From: Roseitranquillus sediminis
GTDB lineage: Bacteria > Pseudomonadota > Alphaproteobacteria > Rhodobacterales > Rhodobacteraceae
Direction of reading: 5' to 3'
DNA: 64,000 nucleotides
Assembly: GCF_016918935.1 (NCBI RefSeq)
Contig: NZ_JAFFOB010000007.1
Location: 186,001-250,000 of the forward strand
In this document: positions 39,559-46,006 of the stretch, piece by piece
Layout of the letters: every line of letters begins with the position of its first letter
Numbering within the stretch: the first letter of the stretch is position 1
Made by a program: the position numbers and the translations under genes
The notes under the pieces: model-generated
What the model was told of the DNA's origin: nothing
The model's database searches: none
Seen by the model: the letters and a program-made list of their open reading frames with translations, nothing else

Positions 39559-40533
39559 ATGGACCCGCTTTCGGGACATAAGGGCGCGGCGGCATTCCTA
39601 TATCCTCCGCTCGACCCGTTCGACCAGCGCATCCTGGACGTTGGCGACGGGCACCGGATCTATGTCGAGCAGTGTGGCAAGCCGGACGGCGTGCCGGTGA
39701 TCGTACTGCACGGCGGTCCTGGCGGCGGATGCAGTCCGGCTATGCGGCGCTACTTCGACCCATCTGTCTACCGTGTCGTGCTCTTCGACCAGCGCGGCTG
39801 CGGCCGTTCCCGGCCCCACGCCAGCGTCGAGGCGAACACCACCTGGCATCTGGTGGCGGACATCGAGCGTATCCGCACGACGCTCGGCATCGACAGGTGG
39901 CTGGCGTTCGGCGGCAGCTGGGGCGCGACGCTGGCGCTGATCTACGCGCAGACGCATCCCGACCGGGTGCGGCATTTGATTCTACGCGGCATCTTCCTGA
40001 TGACCCAGTCCGAGCTCGCCTGGTTCTACGGCGGCGGCGCCGGACAGTTCTGGCCGGATGTCTGGGCGCGCTTTACGCACCTCATCCCCGAGGACGAGCG
40101 GGCCGACCTGATCCGCGCCTACAATCGGAGGCTCTTCTGCGGTGACGCCAGTGTCGAGACGCGCCACGCCCGCGCCTGGGCCGCGTGGGAGAACACGCTG
40201 GCCTCCATCGCGAACGACGGGCCGGGCAGCGAGAGCCCGTCCGATTATGCCCGGGCATTCGCAAGGCTTGAGAATCACTACTTCGTCAACGGCGGCTTTC
40301 TCGAGGGCGACGGTCACATCCTGGGGAACATGCATCGCATCAGCGACGTTCCGGGCACGATCGTGCAGGGCCGCTACGACATGATCTGCCCCCCGCTGTC
40401 CGCCTACAGGCTGCACCAGAGCTGGCCCGGCTCGGTGCTTAGGACGATTCCGAGGGCGGGACACGCGCTGAGCGAGCCGGGGATCAGCCGCGAGCTCGTG
40501 CGGACGACGGATCAGCTGAGGGACGTCGTGTAG
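39559..40533 (+). CDS. pip: Proline iminopeptidase (prolyl aminopeptidase)
   Basis: A 324-residue alpha/beta-hydrolase of peptidase family S33 that removes N-terminal proline from peptides. The N-terminus YPPLDPFDQRILDVGDGHRIYVEQCG is family-specific; HGGPGGGCSP forms the oxyanion region, the nucleophile is the Ser of FGGSWGATLAL, and the acid and base lie in QGRYDMICPP and RAGHALSEP. There is no Shine-Dalgarno sequence before ATG 39559, and a TTTATATA element ends nine bases upstream, so the message may be leaderless. Confidence 0.94.
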   Translation: MDPLSGHKGAAAFLYPPLDPFDQRILDVGDGHRIYVEQCGKPDGVPVIVLHGGPGGGCSPAMRRYFDPSVYRVVLFDQRGCGRSRPHASVEANTTWHLVADIERIRTTLGIDRWLAFGGSWGATLALIYAQTHPDRVRHLILRGIFLMTQSELAWFYGGGAGQFWPDVWARFTHLIPEDERADLIRAYNRRLFCGDASVETRHARAWAAWENTLASIANDGPGSESPSDYARAFARLENHYFVNGGFLEGDGHILGNMHRISDVPGTIVQGRYDMICPPLSAYRLHQSWPGSVLRTIPRAGHALSEPGISRELVRTTDQLRDVV

Positions 40534-40536
40534 GGG

Positions 40537-40565
40537 TTGCGGCAGCTGGCACCGGCGCGTATATG
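40537..40565 (+). promoter_or_regulatory. Candidate sigma-70 promoter for rimP-nusA-ylxR-infB
   Basis: TTGCGG at 40537-40542 and TATATG at 40560-40565 are 17 bp apart, close to the sigma-70 consensus. It begins three bases after the pip stop codon and would give a leader of about 85 nt before rimP. Confidence 0.6.
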
Positions 40566-40619
40566 CGCCATGACAGCGGCGCGTCGGCCTCCACCCCCGA
40601 CGCTCCACCGGGAAAGCAT

Positions 40620-40643
40620 GACGGGCCGCGCGCCCGTCTTTTT
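40620..40643 (+). terminator. Intrinsic terminator in the rimP-nusA leader
   Basis: A perfect seven-base stem GACGGGC/GCCCGTC with a five-base loop is followed directly by five T residues. It ends 13 bases before the rimP ATG and lies downstream of the promoter candidate. It can end pip transcription, but there is no room for another promoter after it, so rimP-nusA transcripts must read through it. This makes it a candidate attenuator. Confidence 0.8.
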
Positions 40644-40656
40644 GTGTCTGGACTCC

Positions 40657-41259
40657 ATGAACGACCTCGTCGCCAAAGCCAGCATCGACCGCCGCCTCGC
40701 CGAGATCATCACGCCGGTGGTCGAGGGGATGGGCTACGAGCTGGTGCGCGTGCGCCTGCTGGGCGGCAAGACCAAGACGGTACAGGTCATGGCCGACCGG
40801 CCGGACGGCAGGATCGAGGTCGACGACTGCGCACGCATCTCGACGGCGCTGAGCGCCACGCTCGACGTCGAGGACCCGCTGGAGGACGCCTATACCCTGG
40901 AAGTTTCCAGCCCCGGGATCGACCGGCCACTCACGCGTCTCAAGGACTTCGTGGCATGGGAAGGCTATGAGGCGAAGATCGAGACGACCGAGATGATCGA
41001 CGGCCGCCGGCGATTCAAGGGAGTGCTGGCAGGTGTCGAAGATGACGAGGTCCTGATCGAGATCGAGGAAGGTACGGTCGGACTGAAGTTCGACTGGCTG
41101 AGCGACGCCAAGCTCGTCCTGACCGACGACCTGATCCGCGACGTCCTCAGGAGCCGCAAGGAAGCGGGCCAGATCGACGAGGCCCAGTTCGACGAAGTCA
41201 TCACCGAATTGCCCCAAGAGGGCGACGCCGACGACGCCGGCGATACGAAGGAGCACTGA
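40657..41259 (+). CDS. rimP: Ribosome maturation factor RimP
   Basis: A 200-residue protein needed for 30S subunit assembly. The N-terminal domain has [21 protein letters not shown] and the conserved [21 protein letters not shown] helix, followed by [14 protein letters not shown]; the C-terminal SH3-like domain follows. A 25-residue acidic tail is typical of the alphaproteobacterial forms. ATG 40657 lies 13 bases behind the leader terminator and has only a weak Shine-Dalgarno element. It is the first gene of the rimP-nusA-ylxR-infB operon; nusA starts three bases after its stop. Confidence 0.94.
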
Positions 41260-41262
41260 TAG

Positions 41263-42888
41263 ATGGCCATCACATCAGCCAACCAGCTCGAGCTTCTGCA
41301 GACCGCCGAGGCGGTCGCGCGCGAGAAGATGATCGACCCGGCGCTGGTCGTCGAGGCGATGGAGGAGAGCCTCGCTCGCGCCGCGAAGTCGCGCTACGGC
41401 GCCGAAATGGACATCCGCGTGTCGATCGACCGCAAGACCGGCCGGGCCACCTTCACCCGCGTCCGCACCGTAATCGGCCCCGAGGACGAGCTGGAAAACT
41501 ACCAGGCGCAGCTGACCGTCGAGCAGGCGAAGCAGTTTCTCGACGACCCGAAGCCCGGCGACGAGATCCGCGACGAGGTGCCGCCGGTCGAGATGGGCCG
41601 GATCGCCGCGCAGTCGGCCAAGCAGGTGATCCTGCAGAAGGTCCGCGAGGCCGAGCGCGACCGCCAGTACGAGGAATTCAAGGACCGCGCCGGAACTATT
41701 ATCAACGGCCAGGTCCGCCGCGAGGAATACGGCAACATCATCGTCGACGTTGGCGCCGGCGAGGCGATCCTGCGCCGCAACGACAAGATCGGCCGCGAGA
41801 GCTATCGCCCGAACGACCGCATCCGCTGCTATGTCAAGGACGTGCGGCGCGAGGCGCGAGGGCCGCAGATCTTCCTCAGCCGCACGGCGCCGGAGTTCAT
41901 GGCGGAGCTCTTCAAGATGGAGGTGCCGGAGATCTACGACGGCATCATTGAGATCAAGGCCGTGGCCCGCGACCCCGGCAGCCGGGCGAAGATCGGGGTG
42001 ATCAGCTATGACTCGTCGATCGACCCGGTCGGCGCCTGCGTCGGCATGCGGGGCAGCCGCGTGCAGGCGGTCGTGAATGAACTGCAGGGCGAGAAGATCG
42101 ACATCATCCCGTGGAACGAGGATCTGCCGACTTTCCTCGTGAACGCGCTGCAGCCGGCCGAGGTCAGCAAGGTCGTCCTCGACGAGGAGGCGGAGCGCAT
42201 CGAGGTGGTGGTGCCGGAAGAGCAGCTCAGCCTCGCCATCGGCCGCCGCGGCCAAAACGTGCGTCTGGCGAGCCAGCTCACCGGTCTCGACATCGACATC
42301 ATGACGGAGGAGCAGGAGAGCGCCCGACGCCAGGCCGAGTTCGAGGAGCGTACGCGCCTCTTCATGGACAAGCTCGACCTCGACGAGTTCTTTGCGCAGC
42401 TTCTTGTCTCCGAAGGCTTCACCAACCTCGAGGAGGTGGCCTACGTCGACCTCGACGAGCTCCTCGTGATCGACGGCGTGGACGACAGCACCGCGGAAGA
42501 GCTGCAGGCTCGTGCCCGCGATCACATCGAGGCGCAGAACAAGGCGGCGCTGGAGAATGCGCGGGCGATGGGCGTCGAGGAGAGCCTCATCGCGTTCGAA
42601 GGCCTGACACCGCAGATGCTCGAGGCGCTGGCCAAGGACGGCATTAAGACGCTGGAGGAGTTCGCGACCTGCGCCGACTGGGAGCTTGCCGGCGGCTGGA
42701 CCACGGTCAACGGCGAGCGCGTCAAGGACGATGGCATCCTCGAGCCGTTCGAGGTGTCTCTCGAGGAGGCGCAGGACCTGGTGATGACCGCGCGAGTGCT
42801 GCTTGGCTGGGTCGATCCCGACGAGCTTGCGCCACAGGACCCCGCGGACGCGGAGGAAGGCGGCGAATCGGAGGAGGCCGAAGCCTGA
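41263..42888 (+). CDS. nusA: Transcription termination/antitermination factor NusA
   Basis: A 541-residue RNA polymerase-binding protein that affects pausing, termination and antitermination. The N-terminal domain (to about 125) is followed by S1 ([21 protein letters not shown]), KH1 and KH2 ([25 protein letters not shown] and [20 protein letters not shown]), then helix-hairpin-helix-type repeats and an acidic tail. ATG 41263 is three bases after rimP. In other bacteria NusA influences transcription of its own operon, which fits the terminator in the leader. Confidence 0.96.
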
Positions 42889-42895
42889 GGTCGGC

Positions 42896-43516
42896 ATGTC
42901 GCGGGGCGGGCGGATGAAGGTGCGTGACGAGTCGGAGCGGAGTTGTATCGTCACCCGCGAGGCGCAGCCGAAGCGGGGGCTGATCCGCTTCGTCGTGGGT
43001 CCGGACCAGGTTCTGGTGCCCGACGTTCTGGAAAAGTTGCCGGGACGGGGTATATGGGTATCGGCGGAGCGCGAGGTCTTGCGTACGGCCATGGCCAAGC
43101 GGCAATTCGCGCGCGCCGCGCGGGCCCCGGTTGAAGTGCCGGACGACCTTCTGGAGCAGGTCGAGGGCGTTCTGGTCCGCCGGCTGGTCGACGGCATATC
43201 GATGGCGCGAAAGGCGGGGCTGGCAATCGCCGGCTTCGAGAAGGTCAAGGACTGGCTTGCCAAGGGCGAGGCGCGTGTCCTCCTGCAGGCAAGCGATGGT
43301 TCAGTGCGAGGCAAGTCCAAGCTCTGGACGCCCACGGGCGGTCGGTTTTTCGGCTGCCTGACGGCACAGGAATTGGGTTTGGCTTTCGGACGTGAACATG
43401 TGATACATGCGGCGCTCGCGGCGGGTGGACTCACGACACGGATCGTTGAGGATGCCGCGCGGCTTTCGGGCGTTCGCGAAGATGGCGGTGGCAAGTCCAC
43501 TGGAAAGGACGAATAG
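42896..43516 (+). CDS. YlxR (DUF448)-L7Ae fusion RNA-binding protein
   Basis: A 206-residue protein with two parts. Residues 1 to about 100 are YlxR/DUF448 with ERSCIVTREAQPKRGLIRFVV and GRGIWVSAE; residues about 100-190 are an L7Ae/L30e-like fold (VRRLVDGISMARKAGLAIAGFEKV). In Firmicutes these are two separate genes (ylxR, ylxQ) between nusA and infB; here they are one chain. Its role is thought to be RNA-related but is poorly defined. ATG 42896 is seven bases past the nusA stop, and infB starts six bases after its own stop. Confidence 0.88.
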   Translation: MSRGGRMKVRDESERSCIVTREAQPKRGLIRFVVGPDQVLVPDVLEKLPGRGIWVSAEREVLRTAMAKRQFARAARAPVEVPDDLLEQVEGVLVRRLVDGISMARKAGLAIAGFEKVKDWLAKGEARVLLQASDGSVRGKSKLWTPTGGRFFGCLTAQELGLAFGREHVIHAALAAGGLTTRIVEDAARLSGVREDGGGKSTGKDE

Positions 43517-43522
43517 ACCATA

Positions 43523-46006
43523 ATGAGCGATACAGACGGCAAGAAGACACTCGGCTTGCGTGGCGGTCCGCGGTCCGGCTCGGTCAAGCAGAGCTTCAGC
43601 CATGGCCGGACGAAGAACGTCGTCGTCGAGACCAAGCGCAAGCGGGTCGTGGTACCTAAGCCCGGGGCTGAGAAGGCCGGCGCTACTGGCGGCTCCACCC
43701 CACGGGTGTCGAGCGATCCGGCGAAGCGGCCAGCGGGAATCAGCGAGGCCGAACTTGAGCGGCGCATGAAGGCGCTGGCCGCGGCGAAGGCGCGCGAGGC
43801 CGACGAGGCCGAGCAGCGCCGTGCCGAGGAGCAAGCCCGCGCCGAGGAGCGCGAACGGCGTCGCGCCGAGGCGGAAGCGAAGGAACGCGAAGAGCGCGAG
43901 CGTGAGGAGCGCGCGCGCCAGAAGGCCGAGGAGGAAGAGCGCCAGAAGGCCGAGGCCGAGGCGCGTGCCCAGCAGGCCGAGGCTGCAGCGGCCGAGCCCG
44001 CCGCAAGCGAGCCGCGCGCCGCGCCCAAGGCGCCGGTCAACCCGCGCAAGGTCGATCGTGAGCGCGACGACCGTCGCGACGTCAAGGGCGGCAAACTCGG
44101 CGGCGGCGACCGGCGCACCGGCAAGCTCACGCTGAACCAGGCGCTCTCGGGTGAGGGCGGGCGGCAGCGTTCGCTCGCCGCGATGAAGCGCAAGCAGGAG
44201 CGTCAGCGTCAGAAGGCGATGGGTGGGCGCCAGCAGCGCGAGAAGGTCATGCGCGACGTCCAGCTGCCCGAAGCGATCACCGTACAGGAACTGGCCAACC
44301 GCATGGCAGAGCGCGTGGCCGACGTGGTCAAGGCGCTGATGCAGAACGGCATCATGGCGACCCAGAACCAGACCATCGACGCCGATACCGCCCAACTCAT
44401 CATCGAGGACTTCGGCCACAAGGTCGTGCGCGTCAGCGCCTCCGATGTGGAGCAGGTGATCGACACCGTCGGCGACAAGCCCGAGGACCTCCGCCCGCGG
44501 CCACCGGTCGTGACCGTGATGGGGCACGTCGACCACGGCAAGACCTCACTTCTGGACGCGATCCGCAAAGCCAAGGTGGTGGCGGGCGAAGCTGGCGGCA
44601 TCACGCAGCACATCGGCGCCTATCAGGTCACGACCGACGACGGCGCGACGCTGACGTTTCTTGATACGCCCGGCCATGCCGCCTTTACCTCAATGCGGGC
44701 GCGGGGCGCGCAGGTCACCGATATCGTGATCCTCGTCGTCGCCGCGGATGACGCGGTGATGCCGCAGACGGTCGAGGCGATCAACCACGCCAAGGCAGCG
44801 GGCGTGCCGATGATCGTGGCGATCAACAAGATTGACAGGCCGGCGGCGAATCCGACGAAAGTCCGGACCGACCTGCTGCAGCACGAGGTGGTAGTGGAGA
44901 AGATGTCGGGCGACGTGCTCGATGTAGAGGTCTCCGCGATCAATGGCACCGGGCTCGACTCGCTTCTCGAGGCGATCGCGCTGCAGGCCGAGGTACTGGA
45001 GCTGCAGGCCAACCCGAACCGGGCGGCGCAGGGCGCGGTGATCGAGGCGCAGCTCGACGTGGGTCGCGGCCCCGTCGCAACCGTGCTCGTCCAGAACGGC
45101 ACGCTGAAGCGCGGCGACATCTTCGTCGTGGGCGAGCAGTGGGGCAAGGTCCGTGCTCTCGTCAACGACAAGGGCGAGCGCGTCAACGAAGCCGGTCCTT
45201 CGGTGCCGGTCGAGGTGCTCGGCCTCAATGGTACGCCTGAGGCGGGCGACGTCCTGAACGTGGTCGAGACCGAGGCGCAGGCACGCGAGATCGCGGAGTA
45301 CCGCGCAAATGCCGCGAAGGACAAACGCGCTGCCGCCGGCGCCGCGACGACGCTTGAGCAACTGATGGCGAACGCCAAGGCGAGCGAGAACGTCACAGAG
45401 ATGCCGATCCTCGTGAAGGCCGACGTGCAGGGCTCGGCCGAGGCGATTGTTCAGGCGATGGAGAAGATCGGCAACGAGGAGGTTCGCGTCCGCGTTCTTC
45501 ACTACGGCGTCGGCGCCATCACCGAGACTGATGTGGGGCTCGCCGAGGCATCGGGCGCGCCGATAATCGGCTTCAACGTCCGCGCCAATGCTTCCGCGCG
45601 CAACACCGCCAACCAGAAGAGCGTCGAGATCCGGTACTATTCGGTGATCTACGACCTGGTGGATGACGTGAAGGCAGCGGCGTCCGGCCTGCTCAGCGCC
45701 GAGGTTCGCGAGAACTTCATCGGCTATGCCGAGATCAAGGAAGTCTTCAGGGTCTCCAACGTCGGCAAAGTAGCGGGTTGCCTCGTCACCGAGGGCGTGG
45801 CGCGCCGGTCGGCCGGCGTGCGCCTCCTGCGCGACAACGTCGTGATCCACGAGGGCACGCTGAAGACGCTGAAGCGCTTCAAGGACGAGGTGTCCGAGGT
45901 GCAGTCCGGCCAGGAATGCGGCATGGCCTTTGAAAACTACGAGGACATCCGCGCGGGCGACGTCATCGAGATCTTCGAGCGCGAAGAGGTCGAGCGGACG
46001 CTCTGA
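43523..46006 (+). CDS. infB: Translation initiation factor IF-2
   Basis: An 827-residue GTPase that brings initiator tRNA to the ribosome. The N-terminus ([20 protein letters not shown]) is the alphaproteobacterial IF2 start. Residues of about 75-175 form a charged Ala/Glu/Arg-rich helix. The IF2_N module ([21 protein letters not shown]) precedes the G domain, with G1 GHVDHGKT, G3 DTPGHAAF and G4 NKID. C1/C2 domains end the protein. It is the last gene of the operon and is followed by a strong terminator; rbfA, often next in other genomes, is absent here. Confidence 0.97.

Follow-up and report, generated by a model that had tools for sequence, protein, structure and literature searches.

A conserved rimP leader in Rhodobacteraceae combining a terminator with a candidate antiterminator strand

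In the window, which is the whole 64,000-nucleotide stretch of Roseitranquillus sediminis DNA that was analysed, the rimP-nusA-ylxR-infB operon is preceded by a compact leader that probably acts as a termination/antitermination attenuator, and for which we infer NusA as the most likely modulator. The putative promoter, a hairpin (P2) and the terminator of this leader are supported by their conservation and position in relatives. Besides the promoter and terminator of the original prediction, the leader has the P2 hairpin, a nearly invariant linker and a 5' strand (P1) that is complementary to part of the terminator. The features of the locus are as follows.

40537-40542, plus strand: -35-like element TTGCGG, read from the sequence; most relatives have TTGCAG
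40560-40565, plus strand: -10-like element TATATG, at a 17-base spacer from TTGCGG, from the sequence and relatives
40574-40580, plus strand: P1, candidate 5' antiterminator strand CAGCGGC, with pairing core GCGGC at 40576-40580
40581-40603, plus strand: P2 hairpin with UCCA in the loop at 40590-40593, from covariation
40604-40611, plus strand: linker UCCACCGG, in which CCACCG is nearly invariant in relatives
40620-40638, plus strand: P3, terminator stem-loop GGGC...GCCC, with arms GACGGGC/GCCCGTC (7 bp) and loop CGCGC
40625-40629, plus strand: P1', GCCGC, the strand complementary to P1; it overlaps both the upper end of the terminator 5' arm and the loop
40639-40643, plus strand: T tract of the terminator, five Ts, read from the sequence
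40657-41259, plus strand: rimP (Pfam RimP_N)
41263-42888, plus strand: nusA (Pfam NusA_N and KH_5), 3 bases after rimP
42803-43516, plus strand: ylxR (Pfam YlxR), given by its ORF bounds, with the 5' end overlapping nusA
43523-46006, plus strand: infB (Pfam IF-2)

The leader lies in an intergenic region of 123 bases (40534-40656). The gene upstream, called pip in the original prediction, is an alpha/beta hydrolase by Pfam, points in the same direction as rimP and stops 4 bases upstream of the -35-like element. Transcription would start at about 40571-40574, some 85 bases before rimP. The layout proposed originally, a TTGCGG-17-TATATG promoter followed by a perfect 7-bp GC stem and five Ts that end 13 bases before the rimP ATG at 40657, was found as described, and these 13 bases (40644-40656) indeed provide no room for a promoter between terminator and gene in the window. 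A NusA-feedback attenuator is expected to control nusA itself, and by Pfam the operon includes it.

Simple pattern counts in the surroundings did not distinguish the leader. A scan of 7.5 kb for terminator-like sites gave 3 against 3.5 ± 2.1 in shuffled sequences, which is chance level, and the same scan found no consensus sigma-70 promoter where 0.8 were expected. The folding stability of the whole leader was ordinary as well (z of -0.78; 49 of 200 shuffles equally stable). Under a strict rule that required 7 Watson-Crick pairs, an arm with 6 or more G/C and 5 or more T among the 6 bases that follow, the rimP-leader terminator was the single match when both strands of the 64-kb window were searched, and dinucleotide shuffling of the 123-base intergenic region produced no match in 2000 trials. 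Rfam searched at gathering score over the whole window returned no match for the leader. The best Rfam match of 40574-40645 was a SorX-like small RNA (E = 0.14; 16.5 bits, where the gathering score is 46.6), which was taken as chance; the two resemble each other in architecture, with a hairpin, a C-rich linker and a terminator. A leader peptide was also considered and rejected: an in-frame ATG at 40618 lies inside the terminator region and is absent from those relatives' leaders that were read.

Conservation was assessed on 110 rimP loci, 30 from family genomes including the window's own and 80 from other genomes that belong to Rhodobacteraceae or are so labelled; the window is thus one of the loci counted, and the set contains one duplicate (L040 = L002). 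The original prediction stood to fall if close relatives lacked the stem. A terminator upstream of rimP was present in all 110 loci by a loose pattern and in 106 by a strict pattern, the four failures having mismatched or longer loops. In the relatives, 12 to 81 bases separate the T run from the matched rimP start. The promoter is kept too: of the 109 loci with readable sequence, 104 have TTG(C/A) and a TATAT-like box separated by a 17-base spacer, and these relatives support the reading of TTGCGG-17-TATATG as a promoter. In principle the hairpin could be the ordinary terminator of the pip-like gene, which runs in the same direction and ends just before the -35-like element, with rimP being served by an unrecognised promoter. 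However, leader and promoter are retained although no more than 22 of the 110 loci have a pip-like gene in the 350 bases upstream, and the leader therefore belongs to rimP rather than to that gene. Together with the lack of promoter space after the terminator, this largely refutes the pip-terminator explanation, which we consider extremely improbable. The attenuator reading fared well in the comparison, since the terminator persists with different upstream neighbours and shows the signature published for the rimP-leader.

From 110 reference leaders an alignment (A1) of 108 was made, leaving out L076 and L112, of which the start was wrongly set; L004 (masked Ns), L111 (without a -10 element) and the duplicate L040 had been lost before the references. 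A covariance model built from the 108 leaders (R1) matched 372 of 394 family genomes, and 336 of the 347 good ones. In the 80 loci outside the window's set it gave exactly one match above chance each, upstream of rimP, with one extra match on the reverse strand at E = 0.007. The window's genome also had one match above chance, the next ones being at E = 0.016 and 0.36. Within A1 the linker (columns 47-52) is identical in 102 to 108 of the 108 leaders per column, and columns 68, 69, 84 and 85, which belong to the GGGc...gCCC signature of the terminator, are invariant (108/108).

The two hairpins differ in what covariation can say about them. All seven pairs of P2 changed on both sides among the 108 leaders, with 90.2% of the cells paired. 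The terminator is nearly invariant, so covariation tells little about it; in about 24 of the 108 rows A1 places it one base out of register, and these rows are scored as unpaired. A coaxial extension of P1:P1' into the 5' arm of P2 appeared in one truncated fold and was rejected, as P2 covaries as a hairpin, and a pseudoknot between terminator and P1 was set aside as unlikely from the loop length. A possible pairing of the P2 loop with the ribosome-binding site was a further hypothesis. Six leaders (L085, L090, L092, L093, L105 and L109) have a shorter P2 in which the UCCA loop is missing; P1, linker and terminator are kept.

The pairing of P1 with P1' was examined in several ways. In the 108 leaders 96.7% of the cells were paired and 2 of the 5 pairs had changed on both sides. 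When P1 was shuffled, the seven pairs in 36 distinct combinations gave 191 of 252 paired against 181.9 ± 2.8, a value reached in 18 of 20,000 shuffles, whereas the five core pairs gave a marginal excess (160 of 180 against 156.2 ± 1.8; 958 of 20,000 as high). Compensated P1/P1' combinations were GAGGC/GCCTC (L066), ACGGC/GCCGT (L095, L099), TCGCGGC/GCCGCGA (L029), GAGCGGC/GCCGCTC (L115) and TAGCGGC/GCCGCTA (L247). Four leaders (L171, L183, L186 and L188) use the shifted register CAACAG/CTGTTG, and GCGG, no longer needed there, is altered in three of them. These L171-type leaders are over-represented because the 30 divergent genomes were chosen by weak R1 score among the matches listed. In a set of 140 leaders, with L198 left out as it has no rimP downstream, GCGG in P1 and CCGC in P1' were associated (115, 11, 4 and 10 of 140), with an odds ratio of 26 when kinship is ignored. 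Conservation of the terminator loop ends with the P1 complement, columns 73, 74 and 75 being identical in 103, 99 and 76 of 108 leaders.

Folding of the growing transcript agreed with such a pairing. In minimum-energy folds of the window leader, which include no kinetics, P1:P1' forms as soon as GCCGC has emerged and is lost to the terminator when the whole of its 3' arm is present. Truncated folds had at least 4 P1:P1' pairs in 123 of 140 leaders versus 680 of 1400 controls with a shuffled 5' end, a comparison made against a GC-rich background. By the criterion applied, full-length minimum-energy folds displayed the terminator in 114 of 140 leaders and not in 26. Duplex energies over all leaders averaged -10.85 for own pairs versus -10.46 for shuffled ones, with 0 of 300 shuffles as low. 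The 23 leaders with an unusual P1' paired better with their own P1 (-6.63) than among themselves (-5.92; 38 of 3000 as good), but a consensus-type P1 paired better still (-7.62), 2998 of 3000 random draws being as good as or better than the own P1; 3 parse failures and windows that take in part of P2 blur this test. When P1 and P1' were compared by independent pairs on a tree, from which L187 was left out, there were 6 to 7 pairs only, with a median p of 0.63 to 0.69, and another such test 3 pairs only. Several leaders, e.g. L014, L015, L025 and L189, have only 3 to 4 contiguous P1:P1' pairs. Taken as a comparative result, the function of P1:P1' as an antiterminator is likely, supported but not proven.

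These data bear on a rival explanation, in which NusA alone reads a bare rimP-leader terminator and sets read-through at its hairpin, and P1 and P2 are spacer and initial transcribed sequence without antiterminator function. This corresponds to the published view for most species according to PMC2965389. P1 coincides with the presumed start of the transcript, so its conservation could serve initiation, and a terminator without the P1 module occurs in 9 of 19 non-family rimP loci as well as in the family loci L252 to L254. Against it stand the compensatory changes in P1 and P1', loop bases that are conserved only where P1 pairs, the co-occurrence of GCGG and CCGC with its odds ratio uncorrected for kinship, and the fact that members without P1 have terminator loops without CCGC. 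On balance we regard the bare terminator as unlikely and prefer the attenuator with a P1:P1' antiterminator.

The distribution of the module was followed beyond the family and among divergent members. Among 385 genomes of the class 27 matched R1, of which 5 lie inside the family; the other 22 matches were weak (E of 5e-6 to 9e-3), and of 7 weak matches that were checked (L203 to L209) only L206 had rimP downstream. At the 19 non-family rimP loci a terminator was present within 350 bases in 9, with GGG...CCC in 8, and 9 is an undercount because the starts were set by homology. The terminator is therefore widespread, and the P1-P2-linker module is a family feature. Twenty-two family genomes had no R1 match, and 8 of the 11 that were re-examined have rimP. 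Five of these loci (L247 to L251) have P1-like pairing and a terminator-like hairpin, with variations: the hairpin of L247 is without a T run, that of L250, which is from the same genome as L115, lies further up, and those of L248, L249 and L251 stand before rimP, as do the hairpins of L252 to L254. The latter three are AT-rich family members with the terminator only and loops without CCGC. The AT-rich leaders L252, L253, L254 and L116 were likewise seen to have a terminator before rimP, and neither P1 nor a GCCGC loop.

One relative has two leader modules in a single operon (L246; G269:C122:3500-8000, minus strand, about 2830-1870). Here the module before rimP is the weaker one (46.8 bits), and a complete module of 78.6 bits, with its own promoter TTGCAGACTC-17-TATAT, lies between rimP and nusA at a distance of about 100 bases from the nusA ATG. 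Fourteen relatives had more than one R1 match, and among those examined (L230 to L236) only G269 had the pair at rimP/nusA. The second module before nusA is a hint at NusA feedback from one case that could be an assembly fault. A separate observation in the window's genome is a terminator-like GC hairpin with six Ts at L137 (minus strand, about 840-790), which ends about 8 bases before the ATG of another gene and possibly is another leader attenuator.

The copy directly before nusA suggests that the module is portable. It is conceivable, if rather doubtful, that the leader is a family-wide portable RNA switch with a 5'-end antiterminator, in which a dedicated effector, either a protein or an RNA, would be bound by linker and P2, and the ~70-nt terminated RNA would possibly act in trans. 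Another proposal has P2 and the CCACCGG linker bind an effector other than NusA, for instance a small molecule, a ribosomal protein, IF-2 or RimP, to which the switch would answer. It would account for a linker that is identical in nearly all leaders yet unpaired in both main structures, and for a P2 that is kept by covariation. Against it stand the absence of any match to a known binding motif in Rfam and the six leaders in which P2 is shorter and has no UCCA loop, and we consider it quite unlikely. The linker itself may perhaps be a protein-binding site.

The preferred attenuator would work as follows. Transcription would begin at the conserved promoter, so that P1 (CAGCGGC) forms the first bases of the RNA and could pair with P1' (GCCGC); the polymerase reaches P1' ahead of the terminator 3' arm. 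As long as P1:P1' is paired, full closure of the terminator would be blocked; the two structures cannot both form fully because the pairing draws on the top of the 5' arm and on the loop. After synthesis of the 3' arm, P1:P1' could be displaced by the terminator, and RNA polymerase would stop 13 bases before rimP. Expression of the operon would then be set by the share of polymerases that escape, which amounts to a balance of short, terminated RNA against operon transcript. NusA favours hairpin-dependent pausing and termination. By favouring closure of the hairpin, NusA would repress its own operon, and it is plausible, in line with the proposal in PMC2965389 for such leaders, that read-through sets the amounts of NusA and IF-2. 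We consider NusA the most likely modulator because nusA is in the operon, because of this general role in termination, and because repression by NusA of the E. coli rimP-nusA-infB operon is cited in PMC2965389.

A terminator before rimP has precedents. In B. subtilis the ylxS (rimP) leader reportedly has a terminator before rimP-nusA with NusA-dependent termination and NusA feedback. The rimP-leader terminator with its GGGc...gCCC stem was named the most ubiquitous attenuator by Naville and Gautheret (2010, PMC2965389), who, in their treatment of this leader, took the absence of a visible antiterminator as an argument for a protein regulator such as NusA and assigned a tandem terminator plus antiterminator only to some Gammaproteobacteria. 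The window leader resembles it in the terminator between promoter and rimP, at 13 bases from the gene within a published range of 4 to 130, and in the stem signature (ACGGGC/GCCCGT). The published account describes no larger conserved element outside some Gammaproteobacteria, whereas P1, P2 and the linker are found family-wide here, and because of their conservation we consider the window leader a variant of the published rimP-leader. As far as sequence comparison goes, the new elements are the covarying hairpin, the CCACCGG linker with its near-invariance, and a 5' strand that is conserved and can pair with the terminator top. A search of open-licence papers at listing level returned nothing on a rimP leader in Rhodobacteraceae.

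The gammaproteobacterial rimP leader (RF01770, name and accession as given in PMC5955585) is alike in gene, terminator and proposed antiterminator structure. It is described with two tandem terminators, the first of the form CCCg...cGGG, while the window has one in 40534-40656, and the RF01770 covariance model had no match up to E = 10 in 40480-40760, nor at gathering score over the window. The E. coli metY-rimP-nusA-infB operon, for which PMC6511841 gives terminators t1 and t2 upstream of rimP, likewise encodes NusA within the operon. It differs by a metY tRNA gene and several promoters before the terminators, where the window has one promoter and a compact leader.

The switching of the rimP-leader was left open in 2010, when no antiterminator was visible, and the family now provides a short and conserved candidate for one. 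Its leader is a compact system for asking whether the level of NusA sets termination before its own gene, and it bears on the balance of the transcription and translation factors NusA, IF-2 and RimP. If the P1:P1' pairing is true, the leader would represent an RNA family that is absent from Rfam and occurs in about 94% of the sampled genera of one bacterial family.
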